Positions 6,633 through 42,133 of a stretch of 64,000 nucleotides of DNA are shown one piece after another; position 1 is the first letter of the stretch; every line of letters begins with the position of its first letter. Under the pieces are notes generated by a model, which searched no databases, was not told where the DNA came from, and saw only the letters and a program-made list of their open reading frames with translations. This DNA is from Streptomyces hygroscopicus (GTDB taxonomy: Bacteria > Actinomycetota > Actinomycetes > Streptomycetales > Streptomycetaceae). The translations under genes were made by a program, and so were the position numbers. The stretch covers positions 8,742,001 to 8,806,000 of the forward strand of contig CP018627.1 in the NCBI GenBank assembly GCA_002021875.1. Direction: 5' to 3'.

Positions 6633-7373
6633 GTGCGCGGTGTGTCAGAACAGATAGAGATGCGAACCGATCCCCCCGCACCTCCGGCGGACTCGGCCGT
6701 TGTCCGCGACGCCCTGGGCGTCGGTGTCGCCGTGGGGCTCTCCGGCTTCGCCTTCGGGGTGACGTCGGCGGGCGCCGGACTCGGCCTGCTGCAGACCTGC
6801 GCGCTCAGCCTGCTCGTCTTCACCGGGGCATCGCAGTTCGCCCTCGTGGGCGCGCTGGCGGCGGGCGGCAATCCGTTCACCGCCGCCGCCGGGGCGTTCT
6901 TCCTCGGAGCGCGCAACGCCTTCTACGGGCTGCGGCTGTCCGGACTCCTCGGGCTGCCGCGCGCGGTGCGCCCCCTGGCGGCCCACTGGGTCATCGACGA
7001 GACCTCCGCCGTCGCCCTCGCCCAGCCCGACCGGCGCACCGCGCGTCTCGGGTTCACCATCACCGGGCTGACGCTGTACGTCCTGTGGAACCTCACCACG
7101 CTGATCGGTGCCCTGGGGGCGTCCGCGCTCGGCGACACCGACGCCTGGGGCCTGGACGCCGCCGGGCCCGCCGTCTTCCTCGCCCTGCTGGCCCCCATGC
7201 TCAGCGGCACCGTCGAACGGGCCGTGGCCGGTCTCGGCGTCCTGCTGGTGCTCCTGTGCCAGCCGGTGCTGCCCGCCGGGGTCCCGGTCCTGGTGGCGGC
7301 GCTCGCCGCCCCCGCCGTCCTTACGGTGCACGGGCGCATGACGCGCGGCACGGAGCCCGGTGAGCGCCGATGA
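6633..7373 (+). CDS. azlC: AzlC-family amino-acid exporter, large subunit
   Basis: 246-aa polytopic membrane protein of the AzlC (LIV-E) family. Family features include the VGLSGFAFGVTSAGAGL start of the first membrane region, FTGASQFALVGALAAGG, and FFLGARNAFYGLRLS. AzlC with AzlD exports branched-chain amino acids or analogues. The gene starts at GTG one base after araC ends; in-frame alternatives are GTG at 6642 and ATG at 6660, since no strong ribosome site separates them. Its 3' end overlaps azlD by ATGA, which indicates translational coupling and a 1:1 complex. The divergent lhr neighbour is functionally unrelated. Confidence 0.88.
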   Translation: MRGVSEQIEMRTDPPAPPADSAVVRDALGVGVAVGLSGFAFGVTSAGAGLGLLQTCALSLLVFTGASQFALVGALAAGGNPFTAAAGAFFLGARNAFYGLRLSGLLGLPRAVRPLAAHWVIDETSAVALAQPDRRTARLGFTITGLTLYVLWNLTTLIGALGASALGDTDAWGLDAAGPAVFLALLAPMLSGTVERAVAGLGVLLVLLCQPVLPAGVPVLVAALAAPAVLTVHGRMTRGTEPGERR

Positions 7374-7672
7374 CCATCTGGATCGCCATCGGCGTCACCG
7401 CGGCGGGCTGCTATCTCGTCAAGCTGCTGGGCCTCTCGGTGCCCGCCGGAGTCCTGGAGCGCCCGCTCGTCAGGCGTCTGGCCGCGCTGCTGCCCGTGGC
7501 CCTGCTCGCCGCCCTCACCGCCCAGCAGACCTTCAGCGACGGCCAGCATCTCCTCCTGGACGCGAGGGCGGCCGGGGTGGGGGCGGCGGCGCTCGCGCTG
7601 GTGCTCCGCGCCCCCTTCCTGGTGGTGGTCGCCGTGGCCGTCGTCGTCACGGCCGGTGTCCGGGCCCTGTGA
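7370..7672 (+). CDS. azlD: AzlD-family amino-acid exporter, small subunit
   Basis: 100-aa hydrophobic protein with three to four predicted membrane helices: MTIWIAIGVTAAGCYLVKLLG, the region around LLPVALLAALTAQQTF, and the C-terminal helix PFLVVVAVAVVVTAGVRAL. This is the size and pattern of AzlD, the obligate partner of AzlC in branched-chain amino-acid export. The start codon overlaps the azlC stop as ATGA. It is the last gene of the araC-azlC-azlD unit and converges on the next gene with only about 20 bp between them. Confidence 0.85.
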   Translation: MTIWIAIGVTAAGCYLVKLLGLSVPAGVLERPLVRRLAALLPVALLAALTAQQTFSDGQHLLLDARAAGVGAAALALVLRAPFLVVVAVAVVVTAGVRAL

Positions 7673-7691
7673 CCGCCGCGGACGCCCCCGC

Positions 7692-8684
7692 TCAGATCCG
7701 CCGTCCGTAGGCCCGCAGCGTCAGCAGCGCCTCGACGGTCGCCACCGACCGCCACTCCAGCGTGGCGCCAGGTGTCCATGGGCGCCGGTGCGGCGGCCAG
7801 CCGCCGTCCTCCTGCTGCGCGGCCACGAGCACGTCCAGGGACCGCTCCACCTCGGCGTCGGTGAACCACCGGCGCGCCAGCGAGCCGGGCGTACGGGCGA
7901 TGTCGTGCACCTGGAAGGGCTCACCGGGGCCCTGCCCCGGCGACAGGGGACGGTCCTCGGTGCGCTCGGGGGCCGCCGGCGGCACGATCAGCCGCTCCTC
8001 CCGCACCCGGCGGCCGAGCCGCTCGGCCGCCGCCTCGGCGCGTGCCCGGTCCGGCGCCCCGTCGAGGAAGGCGACTGCCGCCGCGACCTCGTACGGACGC
8101 CTCGTCGCGCCGCCCTCCCCCAGGGCGGCGACCGCCGCCCAGCAGAAGTCCGTGGCCCGGAAGAGCCACGCATGCCACACCTCGTTACGGTGCAGCAGCC
8201 CCACTACCGGCCCGGTGGTCAGCAGATCACTGCGCGGATCGTCCGCCGACGGGACCCAGGGGGCCGCCGGATAGCCGCGCAACGAGGGGTGGCAGGCGGG
8301 CAGCGCGCCGTCCGGTGTGGACACGGACGTCAGATAGCGGCACAGGCGCTCCACCCGCTGCCCGCCGCAGCGCCCGATCCCGTCGAGCACCCGTAAGGCG
8401 TGCACGGCATGCAGCGGCTGGCTCACCGGGCCGCGCAGATCCGGCTCCAGCGCATGGCCGTAGCCCCCGTCGGTCCCCAGATACGCGGCCAGCGCGGTCT
8501 CGACCGCCTCGGCGCCGCCGGCCAGGAAGTGATAAGCGAATCTGCGCTGCTCCAGCACGCGGGCCGTCAGCCAGACGAACCGCTCGGCGCGGGAGAGCGC
8601 GGAGGACTCGGCCGGCTGCGCCGGCTCGGCGGGCCCGGGTGTGGGGAGGGAGGGCGAGGAGGGGAGGCTTGCGGATCGGTCCAT
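7692..8684 (-). CDS. Conserved hypothetical, prenyltransferase/terpene-cyclase-like alpha/alpha toroid
   Basis: 330-aa soluble protein I cannot assign a reaction to. It contains repeats resembling the QW-type or prenyltransferase alpha/alpha barrel: LGTDGGYGHALEPDLRGP near residue 65, LTSVSTPDGALPAC near 120, and AAQQEDGGWPPHRRPW near 290. These resemble structural repeats of squalene/terpene cyclase-like proteins, but I see no DXDD motif, so cyclase activity is doubtful. It has no signal peptide or membrane span. The first 30 residues are Ser/Pro-rich. A TACGGT hexamer ends six bases before the ATG and there is no Shine-Dalgarno, consistent with leaderless transcription. It is divergent from the DUF3046 gene. 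Confidence 0.6.
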   Translation of the reverse strand: MDRSASLPSSPSLPTPGPAEPAQPAESSALSRAERFVWLTARVLEQRRFAYHFLAGGAEAVETALAAYLGTDGGYGHALEPDLRGPVSQPLHAVHALRVLDGIGRCGGQRVERLCRYLTSVSTPDGALPACHPSLRGYPAAPWVPSADDPRSDLLTTGPVVGLLHRNEVWHAWLFRATDFCWAAVAALGEGGATRRPYEVAAAVAFLDGAPDRARAEAAAERLGRRVREERLIVPPAAPERTEDRPLSPGQGPGEPFQVHDIARTPGSLARRWFTDAEVERSLDVLVAAQQEDGGWPPHRRPWTPGATLEWRSVATVEALLTLRAYGRRI

Positions 8685-8763
8685 GGACAGACCGTAGGCC
8701 GCGAGACACGGTCGGTAGGGGGCTCACGCCTGGGTGCACCCCCGGGAGCGCGATACTGGGCAC

Positions 8764-8958
8764 ATGCGGTTGACGGACTTCTGGCAGCGAATGGCGGACC
8801 ACTTCGGCGCGGCGTACGCCGACTCCTTCGCGCGCGATCATGTGATGTCGCAACTCGGCGGCCGGACGGTGCACGAGGCACTGACGGACGGCTGGGAGGC
8901 CAAGGACGTCTGGCGCGCAGTCTGCGCCGCGATGGAGATCCCCGACAGCAGGCGCTGA
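8764..8958 (+). CDS. DUF3046 small protein
   Basis: 64-aa protein matching the DUF3046 family, conserved just upstream of recA in actinobacteria. It begins MRLTDFWQRMADHFG, and its middle (GGRTVHEALTDGWEAKDVW) is the conserved part. No function is known. I moved the start ten codons downstream of the longest frame because the family starts at MRLT, and a GATACT -10-like hexamer lies exactly six bases upstream (8752-8757) without a Shine-Dalgarno, pointing to a leaderless transcript. Conservation beside recA hints at a role in or near DNA repair, but that is only inference. Confidence 0.8.
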   Translation: MRLTDFWQRMADHFGAAYADSFARDHVMSQLGGRTVHEALTDGWEAKDVWRAVCAAMEIPDSRR

Positions 8959-9037
8959 GCGGTCCCCGGCTGCCCCGGGTGCACCAGCTTCCCGGGGTGG
9001 CCGGATTTCTTCGTCCGGTGTACGCCACACTTGCTCC

Positions 9038-10243
9038 GTGGCCCCGACCGAAGAGACCCTCTCCTCCGACGCCGACGACACCCCGAGCGCCGCTCGGGCC
9101 TCCTCGGACTCCCCGCAACCCGCCGCGCGCATGCCGCGCTGGCTGCCGCGCGCCATGGTGCTCGCACTCGCGCTGGTGGCCTGTTACCGCCTTGCGACCT
9201 GGGCCTTCGATCAGCTGACCGGGCTGCTGTTGAACATCCTGATCGCGTTCTTCCTGGCGCTCGCGATCGAACCGGCCGTGGACCGGATGGCCGCCCGCGG
9301 CATGCGCCGGGGGCTGGCCACGGGGCTGGTCTTTCTCGCCATCCTCATCGGCACCGCGGGCTTCTTCACCCTGCTCGGCTCGATGCTCGCCGATCAGATC
9401 ATCACCATGGTCCAGGACTTCCCGCAGTACCTCGACAACGTGGTCAGGTGGATCAACGACACGTTCCACACCCATCTGTCGCGTCTGGAGATCCAGGACA
9501 GCCTGGTGCACTCCGACTGGCTGCAGAGCTACGTCAAGAACAGCGCCGACAATGTGCTGGACGTCTCCGCACAGGTGCTCGGCGGGTTGTTCAAGACACT
9601 GACGGTGACCCTGTTCGCCTTCTACTTCGCCGCCGACGGGCCCCGGCTGCGCCGCGCCCTGTGCTCGGTGCTGCCGCCGACCCGGCAGGTCGAGGTGTTG
9701 CGCGCCTGGGAGATCGCGGTCGCCAAGACCGGCGGCTACATCTACTCCCGCGGGCTGATGGCGCTGATCTCCGGTGTCGCCCACTACATCCTGCTGGAGG
9801 CCCTGGGTGTGCCCTACGCCCCGGCGCTCGCCGTCTGGGTGGGGCTGATCTCGCAGTTCATCCCGACCATCGGCACCTATTTGGCCGGGGCCCTGCCGAT
9901 GCTGATCGCGTTCACCATCGACCCCTGGTACGCGCTGTGGGTCCTGGTCTTCGTCGTGATCTACCAGCAGTTCGAGAACTATCTGCTGCAGCCGAGGATC
10001 ACCGCCAGGACGGTGGACATCCACCCGGCCGTCTCCTTCGGATCGGTGATAGCGGGCACCGCGCTGCTGGGCGCGGTGGGCGCGCTGATCGCGATTCCGG
10101 CGACCGCGACGCTGCAGGCGTTCCTCGGCGCGTACATCAAGCGGTATGACGTGGCCGACGATCTGCGGGTGCACGGGCGCACGCGGCGGCGCGGCATGTC
10201 GGCCCTCGCGCGGATGCGCGCCGCGTTGGTGCGGCGTAGTTGA
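9038..10243 (+). CDS. AI-2E family transporter-like membrane protein
   Basis: 401-aa membrane protein of the AI-2E/UPF0118 family. About seven or eight hydrophobic segments are visible, including LLNILIAFFLALAIEPAVDRM, GLVFLAILIGTAGFFTLLGSML, and the family-typical C-terminal block from FIPTIGTYLAGALPML to YQQFENYLLQPRI. Members export small molecules; autoinducer-2 export by E. coli TqsA is the namesake, but some homologues are Na+/H+ antiporters, so the substrate is unknown. It starts with GTG; CACACT ends six bases upstream, again leaderless-like. Its stop codon overlaps the -35 hexamer of the recA promoter. Confidence 0.85.
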   Translation: MAPTEETLSSDADDTPSAARASSDSPQPAARMPRWLPRAMVLALALVACYRLATWAFDQLTGLLLNILIAFFLALAIEPAVDRMAARGMRRGLATGLVFLAILIGTAGFFTLLGSMLADQIITMVQDFPQYLDNVVRWINDTFHTHLSRLEIQDSLVHSDWLQSYVKNSADNVLDVSAQVLGGLFKTLTVTLFAFYFAADGPRLRRALCSVLPPTRQVEVLRAWEIAVAKTGGYIYSRGLMALISGVAHYILLEALGVPYAPALAVWVGLISQFIPTIGTYLAGALPMLIAFTIDPWYALWVLVFVVIYQQFENYLLQPRITARTVDIHPAVSFGSVIAGTALLGAVGALIAIPATATLQAFLGAYIKRYDVADDLRVHGRTRRRGMSALARMRAALVRRS

Positions 10244-10269
10244 CATAAAAATCGAACATCCATTCTGAT
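10240..10269 (+). promoter_or_regulatory. recA promoter
   Basis: TTGACA at 10240-10245 is a perfect -35; TCTGAT at 10264-10269, 18 bp downstream, is the likely -10. The SOS box lies between and partly over the -10, as expected for LexA repression. The -35 overlaps the stop codon of the preceding membrane-protein gene. The TSS is inferred, not measured. Confidence 0.75.
10252..10267 (+). promoter_or_regulatory. LexA (SOS) box of recA
   Basis: TCGAACATCCATTCTG fits the Gram-positive/actinobacterial SOS pattern CGAAC-N4-GTTCG. The left half-site is perfect and the right is ATTCT, three of five. It is placed between the -35 and -10 of recA. Confidence 0.8.
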
Positions 10270-10283
10270 GGAGGCCCGACAGG

Positions 10284-10292
10284 TTATCCACA
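10284..10292 (+). promoter_or_regulatory. DnaA-box 9-mer in the recA leader
   Basis: TTATCCACA, a perfect match to the strong E. coli-type DnaA box, lies downstream of the recA promoter and about 90 bp before the RecA start. Streptomyces boxes usually favour TTGTCCACA, but TTATCCACA is bound too. One isolated box may be fortuitous. Confidence 0.5.
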
Positions 10293-10379
10293 GGCCGGGG
10301 ACGTCAGGGCCGCTTGTCAGTGGCAGGCGCTAGCGTCATGGACGTGAAGCGATCGACTCAAGCAAACCGGGTGGGACCC

Positions 10380-11519
10380 ATGGCAGGAACCGACCGCGAG
10401 AAGGCGCTCGACGCCGCGCTCGCACAGATTGAACGGCAATTCGGCAAGGGCGCCGTGATGCGCATGGGCGATCGGCCGAACGAGCCGATCGAGGTCATCC
10501 CCACCGGGTCGACCGCTCTCGACGTCGCCCTCGGCGTCGGCGGTCTGCCGCGCGGCCGGGTGGTCGAGGTCTACGGCCCCGAGTCCTCCGGTAAGACGAC
10601 CCTGACCCTGCACGCGGTGGCCAATGCCCAGCGGGCCGGCGGCACCGTCGCCTTCGTGGACGCCGAGCACGCCCTCGACCCGGACTACGCGCAGAAGCTG
10701 GGCGTGGACACCGACTCACTGATCCTCTCCCAGCCGGACAACGGCGAGCAGGCGCTCGAGATCGTGGACATGCTGGTCCGCTCCGGCGCCCTCGACCTCA
10801 TCGTCATCGACTCCGTCGCCGCCCTGGTGCCGCGCGCGGAGATCGAGGGCGAGATGGGCGACTCCCACGTCGGCCTCCAGGCCCGGCTGATGAGCCAGGC
10901 GCTCCGCAAGATCACCAGCGCGCTCAACCAGTCCAAGACCACCGCGATCTTCATCAACCAGCTCCGCGAGAAGATCGGCGTGATGTTCGGCTCGCCGGAG
11001 ACCACGACCGGTGGCCGGGCGCTGAAGTTCTACGCGTCGGTGCGCATCGACATCCGCCGCATCGAGACCCTCAAGGACGGCACCGACGCGGTCGGCAACC
11101 GCACCCGCGTCAAGGTCGTCAAGAACAAGGTCGCGCCGCCCTTCAAGCAGGCCGAGTTCGACATCCTCTACGGCCAGGGCATCAGCCGCGAGGGCGGCCT
11201 GATCGACATGGGCGTCGAGCACGGCTTCGTCCGCAAGTCCGGCGCCTGGTACACCTACGAGGGCGACCAGCTCGGCCAGGGCAAGGAGAACGCCCGCAAC
11301 TTCCTGAAGGACAACCCCGATCTCGCCAATGAGATCGAGAGGAAGATCAAGGAAAAGCTCGGCATCGGAGTCAAGCCCCAGGACCCGGCGGCCGCGGCAC
11401 CCACCGCGGACGCGGCTGGTGCCGCGGGCGTGACCGACGCCGCGCCGGCTAAGGCCGTGGCCGCCCCGGCGGCCAAGACCGGGGCGAAGGCGGCCAAGGC
11501 CGCCGCAGCCAAGAGCTGA
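10380..11519 (+). CDS. recA: RecA recombinase
   Basis: Central homologous-recombination ATPase and LexA coprotease. The 379-aa protein starts [20 protein letters not shown], the usual actinobacterial start; the frame is open 22 codons further upstream but those residues are not family-like. Walker A GPESSGKT is at 66-73, followed by VEVYGPES and [11 protein letters not shown]. The DNA-binding loops L1 ([13 protein letters not shown]) and L2 ([16 protein letters not shown]) are intact. The last 45 residues are an Ala/Lys-rich tail typical of Streptomyces. It is transcribed from a LexA-controlled promoter at 10240 and is followed 3 bp later by recX. A hairpin after recX probably ends the operon. 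Confidence 0.98.
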
Positions 11520-11522
11520 TCC

Positions 11523-12134
11523 ATGACACGGCGGACCGAATGGCCGGACGGCCCAGGCCGTCCGGAGCGCCCGGACCGTCCGGACAGCGGCGCCCCCTCC
11601 TTGTCGAGGGCCGAGCAGGGGCCGCCGCCCGGCCCGGAGGAGCAGGCGCGGGCGATCTGCCTGCGCCTGCTCACCGGGACCCCACGCACCCGTAAGCAGC
11701 TCGCGGACGCGCTGCGCACCCGGGGCATCCCCGATGACGCGGCGCAGGAGGTGCTGTCCCGGTTCGAGGGCGTCGGCCTGATCGACGACGCGGCGTTCGC
11801 CGAGGCATGGGTGGAGTCCCGGCACCACAGCCGGGGGCTCGCCCGGCGGGCGCTCGCCCGTGAGCTGCGCACCAAGGGCGTGGACTCCGCCCTGATCGAC
11901 GACGCCGTGGGACAGCTCGACGCCGAGCAGGAGGAGCGGACGGCGCAGGAGCTGGTCGAGCGCAAGCTGAGGGCCACCCGTGGCCTCGACCGGGAGAAGC
12001 GGATCCGCCGCCTCGCCGGGATGCTGGCCCGCAAGGGCTACTCCGAGGGGCTGGCGCTGCGGGTGGTGCGGCGCGCACTGGAGGAGGAGGGAGAGGACTC
12101 GGAGCTCCTGGAGCACCACATCCCTGACCTCTGA
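11523..12134 (+). CDS. recX: RecX regulatory protein
   Basis: 203-aa RecA modulator that binds RecA filaments and limits their activity. Three tandem helical RecX repeats are visible from about residue 40: AICLRLLTGTPRTRKQLADAL, RFEGVGLIDDAAFAEAWVES with LARRALARELRTKGV, and RIRRLAGMLARKGYSEGLALRVV. The first 40 residues are Pro/Gly-rich and disordered. The ATG lies 3 bp after the recA stop, so translation is probably coupled and read-through from recA supplies expression. The position is the standard recA-recX arrangement. Confidence 0.95.
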   Translation: MTRRTEWPDGPGRPERPDRPDSGAPSLSRAEQGPPPGPEEQARAICLRLLTGTPRTRKQLADALRTRGIPDDAAQEVLSRFEGVGLIDDAAFAEAWVESRHHSRGLARRALARELRTKGVDSALIDDAVGQLDAEQEERTAQELVERKLRATRGLDREKRIRRLAGMLARKGYSEGLALRVVRRALEEEGEDSELLEHHIPDL

Positions 12135-12162
12135 GCCCCAGCGGCTCTGCCGCGGCGGGGCT
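12134..12162 (+). terminator. Hairpin after recX
   Basis: AGCCCC at 12134-12139 pairs with GGGGCT at 12157-12162, with an inner GCGG/CCGC pairing. It overlaps the recX stop region, has no U-tract, and is typical of Streptomyces GC-rich terminators. Confidence 0.5.
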
Positions 12163-12322
12163 GTGGGCTGTGACGGGCCCTGGGGCCAATCCGGTGAAGC
12201 CGGTTACCGAGAACGAGCGATGTGCGGCCGCGCGGCAGACGCCCGACCCTTAAGACGGGTGCCCCCCGAGTGCAATACCCGAGTGCGGCACCCGAGACGT
12301 GCGGCCCCCGGGCCCGGTGGCG

Positions 12323-12709
12323 CTAGCGCACGGGGAGGCCCGCCGCGCGCCATGCCTGGAAGCCGCCGATGAGATCGGTCGCCCGCTCCAGGCCCAGCTG
12401 ACGCAGCGAGACGGCGGCGAAGCTGGACGCGTAGCCCTCGTTGCACACCACCACGACCCGCAGATCGTGATGGGTGGCCTCGGGCAGCCGGTGGTCGCAC
12501 TGCGGGTCGAGCCGCCATTCCAGCTCGTTCCGCTCGACGATCAGCGCCCCCGGGATGGTGCCGTCGCGCTCCCGGAGCGCCGCATACCGTATGTCCACCA
12601 GCAACGCGCCCTGGACCTGCGCCGCCGCGGCATCCAGGGGCTCCAGCCGGTCGAGTTCCTCGCGGGCCTCGGCCAGCAGCTCGTCCACGCTCCGCTTGGT
12701 CGTGCCCAT
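12323..12709 (-). CDS. Rhodanese-like sulfurtransferase domain protein
   Basis: 128-aa single rhodanese domain. The active-site loop is VVVCNEGYASS, with Cys as the persulfide carrier and the CxxGxxS pattern. Other family marks are LLVDIRYAALRERDGTIPGAL, which normally contains DxR, and DLIGGFQAWRAAGLPV at the C-terminus. Such proteins transfer sulfane sulfur to thiophilic acceptors. It follows the cysteine dioxygenase gene by 5 bp (or overlaps it if the GTG at 12724 is used), so the two form an operon. A joint role in cysteine breakdown and sulfane-sulfur handling is likely. It converges on recX. Confidence 0.85.
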   Translation of the reverse strand: MGTTKRSVDELLAEAREELDRLEPLDAAAAQVQGALLVDIRYAALRERDGTIPGALIVERNELEWRLDPQCDHRLPEATHHDLRVVVVCNEGYASSFAAVSLRQLGLERATDLIGGFQAWRAAGLPVR

Positions 12710-12714
12710 CGTGT

Positions 12715-13290
12715 CTATCCCCACTCCTCGGGCCGCTCGACCTGCTCCAGCCGCAGCGTATGACCGGTGCGGCTGTAGCGCCGCATGAGCGGCAGCGGCG
12801 GATAGTAGGCGTGCACCGACACCGCATGCTCGGTGTCGGACGGATTGATCACCTCATGCACATGATGCGGTCCGAAGGCCCGGCCCTGCCCGGCGGGCAG
12901 CCGCCGCTCGCGGTCCACATCGTCGGCCAGCTCAAGGGTCTTCCAGCCCTCGGTAGGGAGGCGCGCGGTGAGTGACTGCTCGTTGAGCTCACCCGCCGCC
13001 GCGACGAAGGCGCCATGGGAGCCGCCGTGGTCGTGCCAGCCGGTGCCGGTGCCCGGAGGCCAGCCGATCAGCCAGGCTTCGCTGCCGCCCGGCCCGTCGA
13101 GGCGCAGCCAGGTGCGGCCCTCCGGATCGAGCGGAAGCGAGGCGACGAGTTCGGCGTCGGCGGCGGTCCGGCGAGCGAAGTCGAGCAGTTCCGCGGCGCT
13201 GGGCGGAGCGGCCGGGCCGGATGCCGGGTCCGTGATGACGTCCGTGGAAGGGCGCACGGGACCGGAGGTGGAAGTGCGTACGTCGGGCAC
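12715..13290 (-). CDS. Cysteine dioxygenase-family (cupin) protein
   Basis: 191-aa cupin of the cysteine dioxygenase type I family. The iron ligands are visible as WHDHGGSHG (His-x-His) and the later HHVHEV histidine, with the SVHAYYPPLPLMRRY C-terminus typical of bacterial CDOs. It would oxidise L-cysteine to cysteine sulfinate. The frame is open to 13374, but I start at GTG 13290 (VPDVRTSTSG), which has AGGACGG about 7 bp upstream; the longer version has no ribosome site and overlaps the leader peptide. It heads an operon with the rhodanese gene and is preceded by a cysteine-rich leader ORF, so regulation by cysteinyl-tRNA supply is likely. Confidence 0.85.
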   Translation of the reverse strand: MPDVRTSTSGPVRPSTDVITDPASGPAAPPSAAELLDFARRTAADAELVASLPLDPEGRTWLRLDGPGGSEAWLIGWPPGTGTGWHDHGGSHGAFVAAAGELNEQSLTARLPTEGWKTLELADDVDRERRLPAGQGRAFGPHHVHEVINPSDTEHAVSVHAYYPPLPLMRRYSRTGHTLRLEQVERPEEWG

Positions 13291-13320
13291 AGAGAACCGT
13301 CCTGGGTGATCGCGAAAGAG

Positions 13321-13337
13321 GCGCGGCCGCACCGCGC
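13321..13337 (-). promoter_or_regulatory. GC-rich hairpin between the cysteine leader ORF and the dioxygenase gene
   Basis: GCGCGG at 13321-13326 can pair with CCGCGC at 13332-13337 around a five-base loop. It lies after the leader-peptide stop and before the AGGACGG ribosome site of the dioxygenase gene, where an attenuator or ribosome-site sequesterer would be expected. Alternative structures were not computed. Confidence 0.4.
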
Positions 13338-13351
13338 GGGAAAGAAACGGA

Positions 13352-13441
13352 TCAACAGGACGGACGACAGACACAGCCCGCGTAGCGGACCAGGTCCAGA
13401 TGGACCCTCCGCCAGAAGCGAGGCAAGCAGGTGTCAGTCAC
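13352..13441 (-). CDS. Cysteine-rich leader peptide (putative attenuator)
   Basis: 29-codon ORF starting at GTG and ending RRVHLDLVRYAGCVCRPSC before TGA. Three cysteines fall in the last seven codons. The RR-VHLDL-VR core matches the small leader peptides found in Streptomyces upstream of sulfur-metabolism genes, whose terminal Cys codons are thought to sense Cys-tRNA. A TTGACC -35 (13473-13478) and a GATTCA -10-like hexamer (13451-13456), 16 bp apart, place the transcript start close to the GTG, so it may be leaderless. The dioxygenase start is 61 bp downstream. The only possible start in this frame is this GTG, because an in-frame stop lies at 13475-13477. Confidence 0.7.
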   Translation of the reverse strand: MTDTCLPRFWRRVHLDLVRYAGCVCRPSC

Positions 13442-13588
13442 GCTGTGAAGTGAATCATGCGCCGGAAAGGAAGGTCAACCTCACCGGCTCGCGCCCGGAC
13501 CACGCACGCCTTGACACGGACCGCACGCCCGGACGCAAGCCGCACGCCCGAGCGCGACCCCGGTGCGGCGTCGTTGGTCGATCCCGCA

Positions 13589-35613: not shown

Positions 35614-36786
35614 TCACTGGCTCGCGAACTTCTTGCTGACGGCGTTGTAGACGCCCTTCGCTTCGGGGCCCAGGTGCGGGCCCGCCAGCCAGGTCGCGTT
35701 GGACGGGCCGATCGAGGTGTTGGACACCAGCGCGGGCTTGCCGTCCGCACCCTCGGCGACCCAGCCACCGCCGGAGGAACCCGCGGTCATGGTGCAGCCG
35801 ATGCGGTACATCGTGGGCTGCTTGGCGTCCAAGGAGAGCCGGCCCGGCTTGTCCGCGCACTGGTTCATCTTCTGGCCGTCGAACGGCGGGGCGGCCGGGT
35901 AGCCGGTGGCCGTGATCTCGTCGATGGACTTCACCGCCGGGGCGTTGAAGTCGACCGGCAGCGCGCCGCCCACCATCTCCTCGAGCGACTTGCCGCCGCT
36001 GACCTCCGGCTTCACATGCATCACCGCGAAGTCGTATGGAGCGCCCTTGCCGCCCACGGCCGCGCCCCTGTCGATCCACTGCGAGGAGGTCTGCGCCCAG
36101 TCGGCCCACCAGACACCCTTGGGAGCCAGCTCCTCCTTGGTGGCGTTCTCCAGCTCCGCCTGCGACTTGCCCGCGTCGTTGTAGGAGGGGACGAACATCA
36201 GGTTCTTGTACCAGCCGCCGCCCTTGCCCGCGTGGACGCAGTGGCCCGCCGTCCACACCAGGTTGGACTTGCCGGGGTGCGCCGGGTCCTCGACCACGGT
36301 CGCGGAGCAGACCATCGAACCCTCGGGGCCGTCGAAGAAGACCTTGCCCGCGTAGGGGACCTTGGAGCTGTACGGGCTGGTGACCTCCTTGGCCGGGACA
36401 GGCTGCGGATCGGGGTCGGTCACACCCTGGTCGTCCGCGATGTCGCTGTCGTCGACCGGCTTGTCGGGCTCCTGTGCGTCGCGCATCCGGTCCGGCTTCC
36501 ACAGACCCTTGATGATCGGGTTGATGAAGTCACCGGCCTCGCGCAGCCAGTCGTCCCGGTCCCACTTGTTCCAGGCACCGTTCTTCCACTGGTCCAGATC
36601 GATGCCGAGGTTCTTCAACTTGTCGTTGAGGTTGTCGGGCAGCTTGATGTCGTCCACGCCCTGCTCCGACGACGCGGTCGGCCTGGCGTCGGTGTTGTCG
36701 TCCGAGGAATCGCACGCGGTGGCGGTGAGCGCCAGAACCGAGGCTATGACGGCCACGGCCAGTGCGGGTCGGCGTGAGGATGGCAT
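35614..36786 (-). CDS. Trypsin-like serine protease, lipoprotein
   Basis: 390-aa secreted lipoprotein. The signal peptide has lipobox LTATAC, Cys at about 25. A disordered, acidic linker to residue 130 precedes the chymotrypsin-fold domain. The triad is visible as His in LVWTAGHCVHAG, Asp in GAPYDFAVMHV, and Ser in TMTAGSSGGGWVAE, with paired cysteines nearby. The domain is closer to bacterial trypsin-like V8-type proteases than to classical trypsins. A GGGGGAG ribosome site lies 8 bp before the ATG. It is anchored to the outer face of the membrane; the target is unknown. Convergent with hflX and divergent from the aminotransferase gene. Confidence 0.85.
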   Translation of the reverse strand: MPSSRRPALAVAVIASVLALTATACDSSDDNTDARPTASSEQGVDDIKLPDNLNDKLKNLGIDLDQWKNGAWNKWDRDDWLREAGDFINPIIKGLWKPDRMRDAQEPDKPVDDSDIADDQGVTDPDPQPVPAKEVTSPYSSKVPYAGKVFFDGPEGSMVCSATVVEDPAHPGKSNLVWTAGHCVHAGKGGGWYKNLMFVPSYNDAGKSQAELENATKEELAPKGVWWADWAQTSSQWIDRGAAVGGKGAPYDFAVMHVKPEVSGGKSLEEMVGGALPVDFNAPAVKSIDEITATGYPAAPPFDGQKMNQCADKPGRLSLDAKQPTMYRIGCTMTAGSSGGGWVAEGADGKPALVSNTSIGPSNATWLAGPHLGPEAKGVYNAVSKKFASQ

Positions 36787-37022
36787 GGGCGGAACTCCCC
36801 CTGAGGTACTGATCTGCTCTACGGCCTATCTGGAATTGTCATGCACCGCCCCGGCAATGGGGTGGTATCCCACTATGCCGGTGCCGCCTACGACGGCTGC
36901 GAGCGGGTCCTTGGTTCCCGGCCGCAAGGATCTTCGCTCAGCCCGTGATCCAGAGCGTCACGCGTCGTTGGTACGTACGGGGGACAGCCGGAGGGCGTTC
37001 AGCAGCAGGAGGACCGAGACTC

Positions 37023-38768
37023 GTGGCCGTGACCCAGCTCCCGCCGATGGCCCTGTCCGCCGTCTCCAACGACGGTGGCGCCACCCAGGGAATTCTGCGG
37101 CGCCAGGCGCTGCGTGAGTCGGCCGCCCGCACCTATGCCCGGGCGCTGCCCATCGTTCCGGTGCGCGCCCGGGGGATGACGGTCGAAGGGGCCGACGGCC
37201 GCCGTTATCTCGACTGCCTCTCCGGGGCCGGGGCGCTGGCCCTGGGGCACAACCACCCGGTGGTGCTGGACGCGATCCGGGCCGTTCTGGACTCGGAAGC
37301 GCCGCTGCAGGTCCTGGATTTGGCGACACCAGTCAAGGACGCCTTCACGGATGAGCTGTTCGCGACTCTTCCGCCCGGACTCGCCGCCCGCGCGCGGGTG
37401 CAGTTCTGCGGACCGGCGGGCACGGACGCGGTCGAGGCCGCGCTCAAGCTGGTGCGGATCGCCACGGGGCGCGATGGCCTGCTCGCCTTCTCCGGGGCCT
37501 ACCACGGGATGACGGCCGGTGCGCTGGCCGCCTCCGGCGGGGCCTCTGCGGCCGGGGTGCCCCGGCTGCCCTTTCCGTATGACTACCGCTGCCCGTTCGG
37601 GGTCGGCGGGGAGCGCGGTGCCGAACTCTCCGCGTGCTGGGCCGAGACGCTGCTCGACGACCCGAAGGGCGGGGTGCCCGACCCGGCCGGGATGATCCTC
37701 GAACCCGTACAGGGCGAGGGAGGGGTGATCCCGGCCCCGGACGGCTGGCTGCGCCGGATGCGCGAGATCACCGCGGCCCGCTCCATCCCGCTCATCGCGG
37801 ACGAGGTGCAGACCGGCGTCGGGCGCACCGGGGCCTTCTGGGCGGTCGACCACAGCGGGGTGGTGCCCGATGTGATGGTGCTCTCGAAGGCCATCGGTGG
37901 CGGCCTGCCGCTGGCCGTCGTGGTCTACCGGGAGGAGCTCGACATTTGGACCCCCGGAGCCCACGCGGGCACCTTCCGCGGCAACCAGCTGGCGATGGCC
38001 GCGGGCACGGCCACCCTCGCGTACGTCCGGGAGAACCACCTCTCCCAGCGGGCGGCGGTCGTCGGCCGACGGATGCTGGAGCGGCTGCGCCGATTCGCCG
38101 CCGGGCGCCCGCAGATCGGGGAGGTACGCGGCCGCGGCCTCATGATCGGCCTGGAACTGGTCGCCCCGGAGACCGGGCCCATCGCGGAGACGGGACCCAT
38201 CGCGGAGACGGGACCCATCGCAGAGGCGGGGGCCATGGCGGAGGCCGGGCAGGCCGGGGGCGCAGCGCGGGTCGGGCCCGCAGCGCGGGTCGGGCCTGTC
38301 GCGGACGCAGCCTGGGAGGGGGCCCCGGGCGGCGCAACCCCGTACGGGGCATCCCAGAGCGAGGTGGCCCTGGACGAAGTGACCCCGTGCGAAGGAGCCT
38401 GGCTGACGGGCGCCAAGGGCGAGGGCGCGCGCGGAGCCCTGGGCGGGGGTGTGCGCCAAACCCCGGGCGGGGAAGCGTCGTACGCCGGTGTCGCGCGTAC
38501 GGCCGCTCCGCCTGCCGCTCCCGCGCTCGCGGCGGCGGTCCAGCAGGAGTGCCTGCGGCGCGGGCTCATCGTCGAACTCGGCGGACGCCACAACGCGGTG
38601 ATCCGCCTCCTCCCTCCACTCACCATCACCGACGAGCAGACAGAGGCCGTTCTGGACCGGCTAGCCGACGCCCTGGACGCGGCGATCAGCACCTCCGGAA
38701 CCCGCTCCGGTGGACTCCCGCCCGCCGCTGCCCCGTTCGCCCCACCGTCCGCCGGAAACCGACGCTGA
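37023..38768 (+). CDS. PLP aminotransferase (diaminobutyrate/ornithine class), with repeat insertion
   Basis: 581-aa class III aminotransferase resembling 2,4-diaminobutyrate:2-oxoglutarate transaminases such as RhbA and PvdH. PLP-binding Lys lies in VMVLSKAIGGGLPLAVVVY; other marks are CGPAGTDAVEAALKL, SGAYHGMTAGALAASG, ILEPVQGEGGV and DEVQTGVGRTG. A C-terminal VELGGRHNAVIRLLPPLTIT is characteristic of DABA aminotransferases. About 117 residues (about 383-500) are inserted between the large and small domains, rich in Gly/Ala and built on 18-bp DNA repeats. The GTG start has AGGAGG 10 bp upstream. It is the first gene of a three-gene NIS siderophore-like group; DABA could supply a diamine building block. 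Confidence 0.82.
   Translation: MAVTQLPPMALSAVSNDGGATQGILRRQALRESAARTYARALPIVPVRARGMTVEGADGRRYLDCLSGAGALALGHNHPVVLDAIRAVLDSEAPLQVLDLATPVKDAFTDELFATLPPGLAARARVQFCGPAGTDAVEAALKLVRIATGRDGLLAFSGAYHGMTAGALAASGGASAAGVPRLPFPYDYRCPFGVGGERGAELSACWAETLLDDPKGGVPDPAGMILEPVQGEGGVIPAPDGWLRRMREITAARSIPLIADEVQTGVGRTGAFWAVDHSGVVPDVMVLSKAIGGGLPLAVVVYREELDIWTPGAHAGTFRGNQLAMAAGTATLAYVRENHLSQRAAVVGRRMLERLRRFAAGRPQIGEVRGRGLMIGLELVAPETGPIAETGPIAETGPIAEAGAMAEAGQAGGAARVGPAARVGPVADAAWEGAPGGATPYGASQSEVALDEVTPCEGAWLTGAKGEGARGALGGGVRQTPGGEASYAGVARTAAPPAAPALAAAVQQECLRRGLIVELGGRHNAVIRLLPPLTITDEQTEAVLDRLADALDAAISTSGTRSGGLPPAAAPFAPPSAGNRR
38170..38241 (+). repeat. 18-bp tandem repeat inside the aminotransferase gene
   Basis: Four 18-bp units, three near-identical (GAGACGGGACCCATCGCG type) and one diverged, encode ETGPIA x3 then EAGAMA. 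A second 18-bp pair, GCAGCGCGGGTCGGGCCC then a one-base variant, lies at 38262-38297. The unit length keeps the frame. Confidence 0.85.
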
Positions 38769-38867
38769 CGTGCCCCGCACCGTACGACCGCACCGCCATC
38801 GCACCACCGAAGGAGGCAGGCGCCGGGCCCAGGACGTGAACGCCGTGATGCCCGCGCCACACCCACC

Positions 38868-41357
38868 ATGCCGCACACCCCCGGGGGAGCCCCCTTGTCT
38901 CCCCGACCGCAGCCCGTGCCCGGCGCCCTGACCGACTCCGGCGAATCCGCCCACCCCGGCCCCCCGCCGCCCCTCCCGTACCCGCCCCACACGGCGCCTC
39001 CCCCGGCCGGGACGACCAGACCGCCCGCCCCACCCGTCCCACCCGCAGCGGTCCCGACGGTTAGGGCACCGTCCACCGCCATGACGGCCGCCGGAGACCA
39101 GGCGGAGCCCCCAGCACCGCGACCAACCCTCGCTGCGGCGCCACCACCCCTGGCGGCAGTGCCACCCCGGTCGGCGGTGCCATCACCGGCGGCGGTAGGG
39201 CCACTTCCCCCGGCGGCGGTGCCACCATCCCCGGCCACGGTGCCACCATCCCCGGCGGCGGTGCCACCGTCCCCGGCGGCGGTGCCACCGTCCCCGGCGG
39301 CGGTGCCGCCACGCTCTGCGGTGGAGCCACTGCCCCTGGCAGGGTCGCCCGCCACGGCGCCGCTCGTCAGCGCGGCGGAAGCGAGTCCGGAAGCGAGAGC
39401 ACCCCGGCCCTCCGTCCCAGAGCCATTGGCGGAGGAGCCGTCCGTGCCGCAACTGCCCACCCAGGGGCTGCCCCTCCCCGCGATGGCCGTCCCTCGGCAG
39501 GACCGCGACAGCCATGAAGCGCCCGCCGACCGTGCCCGTGTGGTCGGCGTGGATCCACTCGACGACCCCGACCCGCAGATCGCGGCCGATGGTGCGGCCG
39601 TCGAGAACCTGCTGCGCTGCTGGGTACGGGAGAGCGGCCTCGCGCACCCCGATGGGGACACCCTGCGTATCCCGCTCGCCGCCAGCGGAACCGTCCTCCT
39701 CGTCCCGGTGCGCTATTGGTCGCCCACCGGCTGGCACCGCTTCGGCCCGCCGCTGCTGGAGCACGGCCCCCACGACGCGCCCGCCGTCGGGGCGGTCACC
39801 CTCGCGGCCCTCCTCACCCGCGAGGCGGCCTACAGCGCACGGCGGGACGACCCCGACGCGGACGCCACCGAACTCGTCGGCCGTGTCGCGGACTCCGTAC
39901 GACGCACCGCCCTCTTCCTCGCCCACCGCCGTGCGGCGCCCGCCGATCCCGGCACGAGCACCCCGTTTCTCAACGCGGAGCAGTCCCTCCTCTTCGGTCA
40001 CCCCCTGCATCCCACGCCGAAGAGCCGCGAGGGCCTCTCCGACAGCGAATCCACCGTCTGCTCACCGGAATCGCGTGGCTCCTTCTCCCTTCACTGGATC
40101 GCGGTCGCCCGGTCCGTGCTGGCCTGCGAGTCGGCCTGGACGGAGCGCGGCCGGACCGTGCCCGCCGAGCGGCTCGCCCTCTCCCTGGCGGGCAGCGGCC
40201 TCCAACTGCCGGACGGGACCGTCCCCTTGCCGCTGCATCCCTGGCAGGCTCGCGAGATCCGGCACCGTCCGGACGCAGCCGCGCTCTTCGACTCCGGCCT
40301 GTTGCACGACCTCGGGCCGTCCGGCGGACACTGGCACCCCACCTCCTCGGTCCGCACCGTCTACCGGCCCGGCGCTCCTGCCATGCTGAAACTCTCCCTC
40401 GCTCTGCGGATCACCAACTCCCGTCGTGAGAACCTCCGTAAGGAACTCCGCCGCGGTGTCGAGGTGCACCGGCTGCTCCGCAGCGGACTTGCCGAGCAGT
40501 GGCGGGCGGCCTTCCCCGGATTCCCGGGCTTCGACATCGTCCGTGACCCGGCCTGGCTGGCCGTCGATGGACCGGATGGCGAACCCGTTTCCGGCCTCGA
40601 CGTCGTCATCCGGCACAATCCGTTCGGCCCCGGCGACGACGCCGTCTGCGTCGCCGGACTCCTCGCGTTGCGCCCCTGGCGCGGACAGCCCGTGATGCGC
40701 TCCCGTCTCGCCCACCTCGTCGCCCGGCTCGCCGCTCGCACCGGCCGTTCCACCGCGGCCGTCGGCGCGGAGTGGTTCCTGCGCTATCTGCACACGGTCG
40801 TACGCCCCGTTCTCTGGCTGGACGGAGAAGCCGGTATCGCGCTCGAGGCGCACCAGCAGAACACCCTGGTGCTGCTGGACCCCGACGGCTGGCCGATCGG
40901 CGGCCGCTACCGGGACAACCAGGGCTACTACTTCCGCGCGTCCCGGCACGCCGAACTCCAGCGCCGGCTGCCCGGTATCGGCGGCCGCAGCGACACCTTC
41001 GTCCCCGACGAGGTCACCGACGAGCGGTTCGCCTACTACCTGGGTGTCAACAACGTCCTCGGAATGATCGGCGCCTTCGGGTCCCAGCGACTCGTCGACG
41101 AGCGCGTCCTGCTGGCCGCGTTCCGCCGCTTTCTCACCGAGGCCGCGTCCGGCCCCGGCAGGACCCGCTCACCGCTTCCCGCCCGGCTCCTGGAGACGCC
41201 CACTCTGCGCTGCAAGGCCAACCTGCTCACGCGGCTGCGCGGCCTGGACGAACTCGTGGGACCAGTGGACACCCAGTCCGTCTATGTGACCATCGCCAAC
41301 CCCCTCGTCACTTCTGTCTCTCCTTACGGCATCCCAGCTGTCACCCCCATGGCTTGA
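38868..41357 (+). CDS. IucA/IucC-family NIS siderophore synthetase with Pro/Ala-rich N-terminal extension
   Basis: 829-aa NIS synthetase. The ATP-grasp-like core begins near residue 240 and includes LLFGHPLHPTPKSREG, PLHPWQAREIRH, KLSLALRITNSRREN and EAHQQNTLVLLDPDG, all typical of IucA/IucC enzymes that adenylate citrate or succinate-type carboxylates and couple them to amines. The first 230 residues are a disordered Pro/Ala-rich extension, with five 7-residue AVPPSPA-type units. The start is uncertain: the ATG has no ribosome site, while an in-frame TTG at 38895 has GGGGGAG 6 bp upstream. Member of the NIS trio. Usual family length is about 600 aa. Confidence 0.85.
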   Translation: MPHTPGGAPLSPRPQPVPGALTDSGESAHPGPPPPLPYPPHTAPPPAGTTRPPAPPVPPAAVPTVRAPSTAMTAAGDQAEPPAPRPTLAAAPPPLAAVPPRSAVPSPAAVGPLPPAAVPPSPATVPPSPAAVPPSPAAVPPSPAAVPPRSAVEPLPLAGSPATAPLVSAAEASPEARAPRPSVPEPLAEEPSVPQLPTQGLPLPAMAVPRQDRDSHEAPADRARVVGVDPLDDPDPQIAADGAAVENLLRCWVRESGLAHPDGDTLRIPLAASGTVLLVPVRYWSPTGWHRFGPPLLEHGPHDAPAVGAVTLAALLTREAAYSARRDDPDADATELVGRVADSVRRTALFLAHRRAAPADPGTSTPFLNAEQSLLFGHPLHPTPKSREGLSDSESTVCSPESRGSFSLHWIAVARSVLACESAWTERGRTVPAERLALSLAGSGLQLPDGTVPLPLHPWQAREIRHRPDAAALFDSGLLHDLGPSGGHWHPTSSVRTVYRPGAPAMLKLSLALRITNSRRENLRKELRRGVEVHRLLRSGLAEQWRAAFPGFPGFDIVRDPAWLAVDGPDGEPVSGLDVVIRHNPFGPGDDAVCVAGLLALRPWRGQPVMRSRLAHLVARLAARTGRSTAAVGAEWFLRYLHTVVRPVLWLDGEAGIALEAHQQNTLVLLDPDGWPIGGRYRDNQGYYFRASRHAELQRRLPGIGGRSDTFVPDEVTDERFAYYLGVNNVLGMIGAFGSQRLVDERVLLAAFRRFLTEAASGPGRTRSPLPARLLETPTLRCKANLLTRLRGLDELVGPVDTQSVYVTIANPLVTSVSPYGIPAVTPMA
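39211..39315 (+). repeat. 21-bp tandem repeats encoding Pro/Ala units in the NIS synthetase
   Basis: Five consecutive 21-bp units of the type CGGCGGCGGTGCCACCGTCC plus C, with few mismatches. Two middle copies are identical. Each encodes a 7-residue PAAVPPS-type unit. Confidence 0.85.
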
Positions 41358-41434
41358 CTCCGCGACCCGCGATCACGCCCCTCACCCCCACATCCCTCAC
41401 GACGTGTCGAGCCCCCTGAGAGGAGAGCGTCGCC

Positions 41435-42133
41435 GTGCCGCACACCGACTCAAGTACGAGCTCCAGCACCGACGACACCATCGACATGCGGCTGCGCCAG
41501 GAAGAGGACATCGCACGACTCATCGGCCTGGACGCCACCGGACGGGAGGCCGACGGCCGGGCGGATCTGCTCGACCACATCGTCGAATGGCGGCCCACCA
41601 GCACCCCGTTGGGCACCTTCCAGCTCGTCCCGGTCCGCATCGGGCGCGATCTGCGGCTCATCGCCCAATGGATGAACGACCCCTCCGTCGCCGCCTTCTG
41701 GGAGCTCGACGGCCCCGATGAGACCACCGCGAGCCACCTCGGGGATCAGCTCGACGGCGATGGCCGCAGCGTGCCCTGTCTGGGCGTCCTGGACGGCGCC
41801 CCGATGAGCTATTGGGAGGTGTACCGCGCCGATCTGGACCCGCTCGCGCGGTACTACCCGGCCCGGCCGCACGACACGGGTATCCACCTGCTCATCGGCC
41901 GGGTCGGCGATCGTGGCCGTGGCCTGGGGACGATCCTGCTCCGCGCCGCCGCCGACCTCGTCCTCGAGCACCGTCCGTCCTGCACCCGGGTCGTGGCCGA
42001 ACCGGACCTTCGCAACACCCCCTCCGTCGCCGCCTTCCTCGGCGCCGGATTCCGCTTCTCCGCGGAAGTCGAACTCCCCGGCAAACGCGCCGCGCTGATG
42101 CTGCGCGACCGTGCCCTGAGACACGTCCTGTGA
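41435..42133 (+). CDS. GNAT-family siderophore-type acyltransferase
   Basis: 232-aa GNAT acetyltransferase of the IucB/AlcB-like (Acetyltransf_8) type. After a 20-residue disordered start, the region LVPVRIGRDLRLIAQWMNDPSVAAFWELDG is family-typical, as is PMSYWEVYRADLDPLARYYPARPHDTGIHLLIG. The acetyl-CoA loop is GDRGRGLGTILLRAAADLV. These enzymes acylate amino or N-hydroxyamino groups in hydroxamate siderophores. The GTG start has AGAGGAGAG 6 bp upstream. It is the third gene of the NIS trio and follows the synthetase by 77 bp. No N-hydroxylase is adjacent, so the acceptor may be a plain amine. Confidence 0.83.
   Translation: MPHTDSSTSSSTDDTIDMRLRQEEDIARLIGLDATGREADGRADLLDHIVEWRPTSTPLGTFQLVPVRIGRDLRLIAQWMNDPSVAAFWELDGPDETTASHLGDQLDGDGRSVPCLGVLDGAPMSYWEVYRADLDPLARYYPARPHDTGIHLLIGRVGDRGRGLGTILLRAAADLVLEHRPSCTRVVAEPDLRNTPSVAAFLGAGFRFSAEVELPGKRAALMLRDRALRHVL

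Follow-up and report, generated by a model that had tools for sequence, protein, structure and literature searches.

A candidate citrate-hydroxamate pathway split between two chromosomal loci in Streptomyces

Introduction

Rhizobactin 1021 is encoded in Sinorhizobium meliloti by the rhbABCDEF cluster on pSymA, and each of these six genes has a counterpart among those considered here, the order A-B-C-D-E-F being also that of the complete clusters found between hflX and dinG in some sister genera. Schizokinen has a backbone of citrate and N-acetyl-N-hydroxy-1,3-diaminopropane, the type of backbone predicted below, with a one-armed product in the genome under study. Aerobactin (IucABCD) and desferrioxamine (DesABCD) have lysine and cadaverine, respectively, as amine precursors, and their routes include no DABA aminotransferase, unlike the trio of genes described here. 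Both systems nonetheless provide relatives of the trio: among solved proteins, the aerobactin synthase IucA comes closest to the trio synthetase (5jm7, E 7e-51, followed by AcsD, E 1.5e-16), and a second synthetase found beside the trio in related genomes is AlcC/DesD/IucC-like.

Genes of the same three kinds are present in S. coelicolor as SCO5799-SCO5801, which correspond to the trio by their gene order ahead of lexA, nrdR and nrdJ. The S. coelicolor genes are termed a putative or siderophore-type cluster in passages that name neither a product nor partner genes (PMC7324645, PMC3224560). In a table of PMC3610822 with three columns, the values for SCO5799 and SCO5801 are positive throughout and those for SCO2782 (desA) strongly negative in two, and PMC6414726 gives one comparison with SCO5800 down where SCO2783 is up. 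Schizokinen has been tentatively identified in Streptomyces extracts, in reports whose relevant passages do not describe the responsible genes (PMC11865988, PMC13136089). The species of one schizokinen-reported strain, S. mutomycini, has a type-collection genome with aminotransferase, synthetase, acyltransferase and IucC-like genes at the hflX-dinG site, which is a lead only. A literature search, partial and mostly at the level of titles and abstracts, returned no report of the orphan gene pair described below or of a two-locus split. The kind of trio is known, and a split citrate-hydroxamate pathway lacking an iron box appears to be unreported as far as the search extends.

The locus studied here differs from rhizobactin 1021 in having the A, C and D genes at one locus and the B and E genes at another, in missing F in the genome concerned, and in having no iron box. 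Identities to the pSymA cluster are 58% for the aminotransferase (AT), 39% for the NIS (NRPS-independent) synthetase, 37% for the GNAT acyltransferase, 38% and 39% for the orphan decarboxylase (DEC) and hydroxylase (HYD) and 38% for the second synthetase of a related locus (L091). These one-to-one counterparts support the reading of the two loci as one split pathway.

The trio and its genomic site

The window, a stretch of 64,000 nucleotides from Streptomyces hygroscopicus, belongs to a genome assembled as a single contig of 12.0 Mb and carries the trio as three + strand genes at 37023-42133, about where the initial annotation had placed them; coordinates and profile matches confirm the NIS core that it described. 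The first gene (37023..38768, +) encodes a DABA-type class III aminotransferase (RhbA-like) that matches Aminotran_3 and scores 458 bits against the DABA transaminase profile TIGR00709 in a profile search, over the cut-off of 401.6; it starts with GTG, preceded by GGAGGA, and this start is conserved across 45 aligned upstream regions. The second (38868..41357, +) encodes an IucA/RhbC-type synthetase with an IucA_IucC plus FhuF architecture (PF04183, PF06276), in which a proline-rich repeat extends to about 39425 and the core conserved in an alignment with sister genera and pSymA begins at about 39660. Tandem repeats of 18, 21, 24 and 63 bases occupy 38167-38472, within an insert of the aminotransferase, and 39114-39340, within the proline-rich N-terminus of the synthetase, the true start of which is unsure because of them. 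The third gene (41435..42133, +) encodes a siderophore-type GNAT acyltransferase (IucB/RhbD/MbtK-like; PF13523, Acetyltransf_8, 157.8 bits), with MbtK as its nearest solved relative (E 1e-33). Upstream of the trio lies hflX, with a divergent gene between (35614-36786, -) that looks serine-protease-like by eye, has no match in a Pfam search and adjoins the trio in 58 of 62 loci. Downstream, dinG begins 237 bases past the GNAT gene, with no second synthetase (F) in between.

Elsewhere in the genome there is a complete desABCD set, and the NIS genes besides that of the trio comprise desD and an Sbn-like pair. The latter belong to a second NIS cluster (L072, G000:C1:4016000-4034000, positions 6813-13574), judged Sbn-like by eye, in which two synthetases are accompanied by a PLP decarboxylase and an ATP-grasp-like gene; this cluster has an iron box.

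A relative of the synthetase is found in 149 of 150 genomes of the genus (E<=1e-3), a count that also takes in other NIS enzymes, with most best matches 63-80% identical, and the GNAT in 139 of 150 (E<=1e-20); both sets include the window's own genome. Across the family, a close synthetase relative occurs in 148 of 150 genomes and 17 of 17 genera (E<=1e-60), some of these matches possibly being second clusters. Conservation of the trio exceeds chance. Gene content was compared in 62 loci, comprising the window, L091 and a further 60 chosen mainly because their contigs are long (58 from the 150-genome set and two from a class search). The synthetase is present in all 62, the GNAT in 61, the aminotransferase in 46 and the second synthetase in 35, and the patterns (ACDF 25, ACD 20, CDF 10, CD 6, AC 1) identify synthetase and GNAT as the constant core; the ACD form seen in the window is common. 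One of the loci (L102, G012:C1:8400700-8414300) holds synthetase and GNAT without hflX, AT or dinG, and the core pair has apparently moved in that genome. The earlier suggestion of vertical inheritance within a conserved hflX-dinG neighbourhood is supported by the 62 loci and by the trees of AT, synthetase and GNAT.

An orphan decarboxylase-hydroxylase pair

The amino-acid decarboxylase and N-hydroxylase were initially described as absent from the window, which is borne out, as none of the four PF00282 decarboxylase and 11 PF13434 hydroxylase matches of the genome falls inside it. What had been concluded from this, that the two steps are missing and that the product is something other than a hydroxamate, finds no support: the same chromosome carries, 4.4 Mb from the trio, an orphan two-gene pair, RhbB-like and RhbE-like, at C1:4340469-4343446, and complete hydroxamate sets occupy the trio's site in sister genera. 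The flavin hydroxylase gene (C1:4340469-4342037, PF13434) and the decarboxylase gene (C1:4342034-4343446, PF00282) overlap by four bases and have no NIS gene near them; besides the desferrioxamine set, they are the genome's one case of a PF00282 decarboxylase adjoining a PF13434 hydroxylase. Their neighbours, assigned by eye, are an aminopeptidase N-like gene at one end and, at the other, a nucleotidase-like and a pyruvate kinase-like gene, a neighbourhood repeated in related genomes. The initial annotation had also named a full hydroxamate cluster elsewhere that uses the trio as something that would count against its reading; the missing half does lie elsewhere, in a locus that is not a full cluster and whose use of the trio we infer.

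A non-hydroxamate product, formed by acylating DABA or a diamine and joining it to citrate or succinate without N-hydroxylation to give an amide or carboxylate ligand, is now very unlikely. It would fit the lack of any decarboxylase or hydroxylase gene there in all 62 loci and the five trio-bearing genomes (G008, G010, G079, G081, G099) in which no orphan DEC or HYD was found, but it is at odds with the orphan pair in this genome and most of the genus and with the complete sets of the sister genera.

The best match of the orphan decarboxylase is the DABA decarboxylase 2qma, its second best solved match being a desferrioxamine enzyme, and it scores 281.7 bits against the RhbB model NF052646, below the cut-off of 900. 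The orphan hydroxylase matches diamine hydroxylases, with a desferrioxamine enzyme as its best solved match and a TIGR04439 score below cut-off. Both are closer to enzymes of rhizobactin-like clusters (39-59% for DEC, 42-54% for HYD) than to the genome's own DesA (35%) and DesB (39%). This comparison bears on another possible source of hydroxylated diamine, namely DesA and DesB, which would lead through the trio to a cadaverine-based, arthrobactin-like citrate hydroxamate. The genome has the complete desABCD set (L073), and strains without the orphan pair would all need some other source; such a supply would, however, leave a DABA aminotransferase and a closer RhbB/RhbE-like pair without a role, and we regard it as quite unlikely. 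In six genomes (G005, G056, G066, G115, G126, G127), a decarboxylase gene and a hydroxylase gene lie side by side as second copies that share 62-68% identity with the orphan pair.

Co-occurrence and constraint

The orphan decarboxylase (best E under 1e-75 and not solely inside a second full cluster, which excludes G035, G043, G044 and G114) occurs in 127 of the 139 genus genomes that have the GNAT and in none of the 11 that lack it, its pepN site having been checked in 12 loci of the 127. With unresolved assemblies removed, that is, genomes broken at contig ends (G028, G050, G130, G139, plus G032 and G097), the figures are 127 of 138 against 0 of 6 (p 1.1e-6). The orphan hydroxylase (E<=1e-160) is present in 128 of 139 GNAT-bearing and 5 of 11 GNAT-lacking genomes, or 3 of 7 of the latter once G028, G050, G130 and G139 are set aside (p 0.002), and so tracks the trio less well than the decarboxylase. 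G051 was scored as trio-lacking, although of the trio it is missing just the GNAT gene. The decarboxylase alone hinted that pair and trio are always lost together; the hydroxylase and contig breaks weaken that view. Second NIS clusters carrying these enzymes occur in G035, G043, G044, G114 and G121, and G131 has the hydroxylase only. In the family as a whole, the decarboxylase is found in 142 of 150 genomes (E<=1e-75), and whether it lies at the site or elsewhere varies with the genus.

Kinship matters for these counts, since related genomes do not amount to independent observations. On the dinG tree (79 genus genomes with dinG plus one outgroup, G012 having no dinG), six changes of state were counted for the trio, and tree-corrected tests have too few pairs for significance. 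For the decarboxylase, the four pairs comprised on average 2.5 that went the same way, 0 that went the opposite way and 1.5 without difference, and for the hydroxylase the five pairs comprised 2.0, 0.1 and 2.9, respectively, both tests being underpowered. Cooperation of the trio and the orphan pair is suggested by homology together with a co-occurrence that has exceptions.

Over four species pairs, dN/dS is 0.08-0.40 for the synthetase, 0.11-0.31 for the GNAT and 0.16-0.23 for the aminotransferase, compared with 0.29-0.71 for the orphan decarboxylase, 0.33-0.98 for the hydroxylase and, as controls, 0.05-0.09 for dinG and 0.11-0.55 for pepN. The value of 0.98 comes from one species pair, and such weak constraint counts against a strict role for the hydroxylase. 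It is also among the observations that a slowly decaying remnant would explain, or a synthetase and acyltransferase turned to some unrelated use, along with at least six trio losses, 14 DEC changes and 11 HYD changes on the dinG tree, the frequent absence of the aminotransferase and second synthetase, and the repeats in AT and the synthetase N-terminus. Against decay or diversion stand the family-wide presence of a close synthetase relative, with its possible admixture of second clusters, the low dN/dS of all three trio genes and the retention of motifs, and we consider either outcome unlikely. Synthetase motifs are retained in 54-62 of the 62 loci at most positions, and the catalytic motifs of the genes are largely retained.

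Complete clusters in sister genera and origin of the split

Sister genera, surveyed through one genome each unless stated otherwise, show what the site can hold. Four of them (g115, g117, g118, g128) have the order AT-DEC-NIS-GNAT-HYD-IucC between hflX and dinG. Two genomes of g116 have the set minus IucC, and one of these lacks AT as well; two of g127 retain HYD, with AT and DEC gone; and in g123 NIS-GNAT-HYD-IucC is visible in a stretch that ends at a contig end. Both DEC and HYD are absent from the site in eight genera (g119, g120, g121, g122, g124, g126, g129, g130), in seven of which the genome has DEC elsewhere, none being listed for that of g124. Among the best 80 of at least 578 named loci, the full six-gene set is at the site in Embleya scabrispora and Yinghuangia seranimata, and a Pseudonocardiaceae MAG has DEC-NIS-GNAT-HYD-IucC; the other 77 have neither DEC nor HYD in the stretch compared, some of these stretches being ended by contig ends. 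A genome of another family (L080) also has DEC-NIS-GNAT-HYD-IucC between hflX and dinG. A gene that appears nitrilase/amidase-like by eye lies between cluster and dinG in three loci (L230:12920-13723, L233:2130-2996, L248:4034-4867).

In the trees, the trio's AT, synthetase and GNAT nest with hflX-site homologues. The orphan decarboxylases (12 rows) and hydroxylases (17 rows) each form one clade, with support of 97/92 and 96/93, and join at 100/100 a separate cluster of genome G447 (L240, gene order A-B-E-C-D, with an iron box), DEC also joining two Streptomyces second clusters, apart from the DEC and HYD of the hflX site; long branches and uneven composition were flagged in some rows. A departure of B and E from the hflX site is disfavoured by this grouping with the L240-type cluster. 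From these positions, the orphan pair appears to be what remains of a second cluster, covering functions lost at the first site, and two homologous clusters seem to have decayed in a complementary manner.

Upstream region and iron boxes

Two conserved blocks precede the aminotransferase at 36926..36985 (+), AAGGATCTT at 36926-36934 and CGTCGTTGGTACGTACGGGGGAC at 36963-36985, with columns at least 80% identical across the 45 aligned loci having AT. They are not an iron box and probably represent a promoter or control region. Iron boxes were sought by sequence scan with the 19-base consensus, allowing up to five mismatches. None was found in the 62 trio loci, anywhere in the window or in L161, none in 21 orphan-pair loci and none in L080, whereas 16 of the 18 other NIS loci (L072-L090, L080 excluded) have one; a Markov-shuffled control of 816 kb also gave none. 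In L230, L232 and L233, as in the separate cluster L240, a box lies directly upstream of AT; L243 has a version with six mismatches, and g116 has none. Three of the best 80 named loci have a box, namely those of Embleya, Yinghuangia and the Pseudonocardiaceae MAG, the Yinghuangia locus and L230 being probably one assembly. The scan does not detect every iron-controlled promoter, since it missed that of desA, the sole match in the genome's des locus (five mismatches or fewer) preceding a binding-protein-like gene. No common motif was seen when the upstream regions of trio and pair were compared by eye. Complete clusters usually have a box, and from its lack at either locus of this genome the pathway is probably outside DmdR/IdeR control.

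Proposed pathway and its significance

We regard it as fairly probable that the trio forms the A-C-D part of a split rhizobactin-1021/schizokinen-type citrate-hydroxamate pathway, with B and E at the second locus of the same chromosome. The aminotransferase would form L-DABA, which the orphan decarboxylase would convert to 1,3-diaminopropane and the orphan flavin hydroxylase would then N-hydroxylate; the GNAT would acylate the hydroxylamine, probably with an acetyl group, and the IucA-type synthetase would activate citrate and join it to the free amine. Where relatives have a second, DesD/IucC-like synthetase, a second arm would be added to give a schizokinen-like product, and the window's genome, lacking that gene at the site, would either produce the one-armed citrate hydroxamate or have a single synthetase act twice. 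This split pathway is supported by the complete sets that sister genera have between hflX and dinG, by the best relatives of the orphan enzymes and their co-occurrence with the GNAT, by the distribution of iron boxes and by the largely retained catalytic motifs. It is weakened by the looser tracking of the hydroxylase, the five trio genomes without orphan genes, the underpowered tree-corrected test, the upper dN/dS values of both orphan genes, their NCBIfam scores and desferrioxamine-enzyme matches, and the 16 of 62 loci without AT.

More tentatively, and as a possibility that we hold with less confidence, the pathway of Streptomyces-like genera may be a chimera in which A-C-D(-F) was kept at the hflX-dinG site and only B-E at the pepN-nucleotidase site, both without an iron box, making a siderophore-type ligand under developmental or other-metal control and not as an iron-starvation response. 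An orphan cluster widespread in Streptomyces thereby gains candidate partner genes, a predicted product class and a regulatory prediction. Cluster-finding that proceeds one locus at a time would overlook split pathways such as that proposed for the trio and the orphan pair, and if iron control has truly been lost, the ligand could have a role in development, with another metal or in competition.
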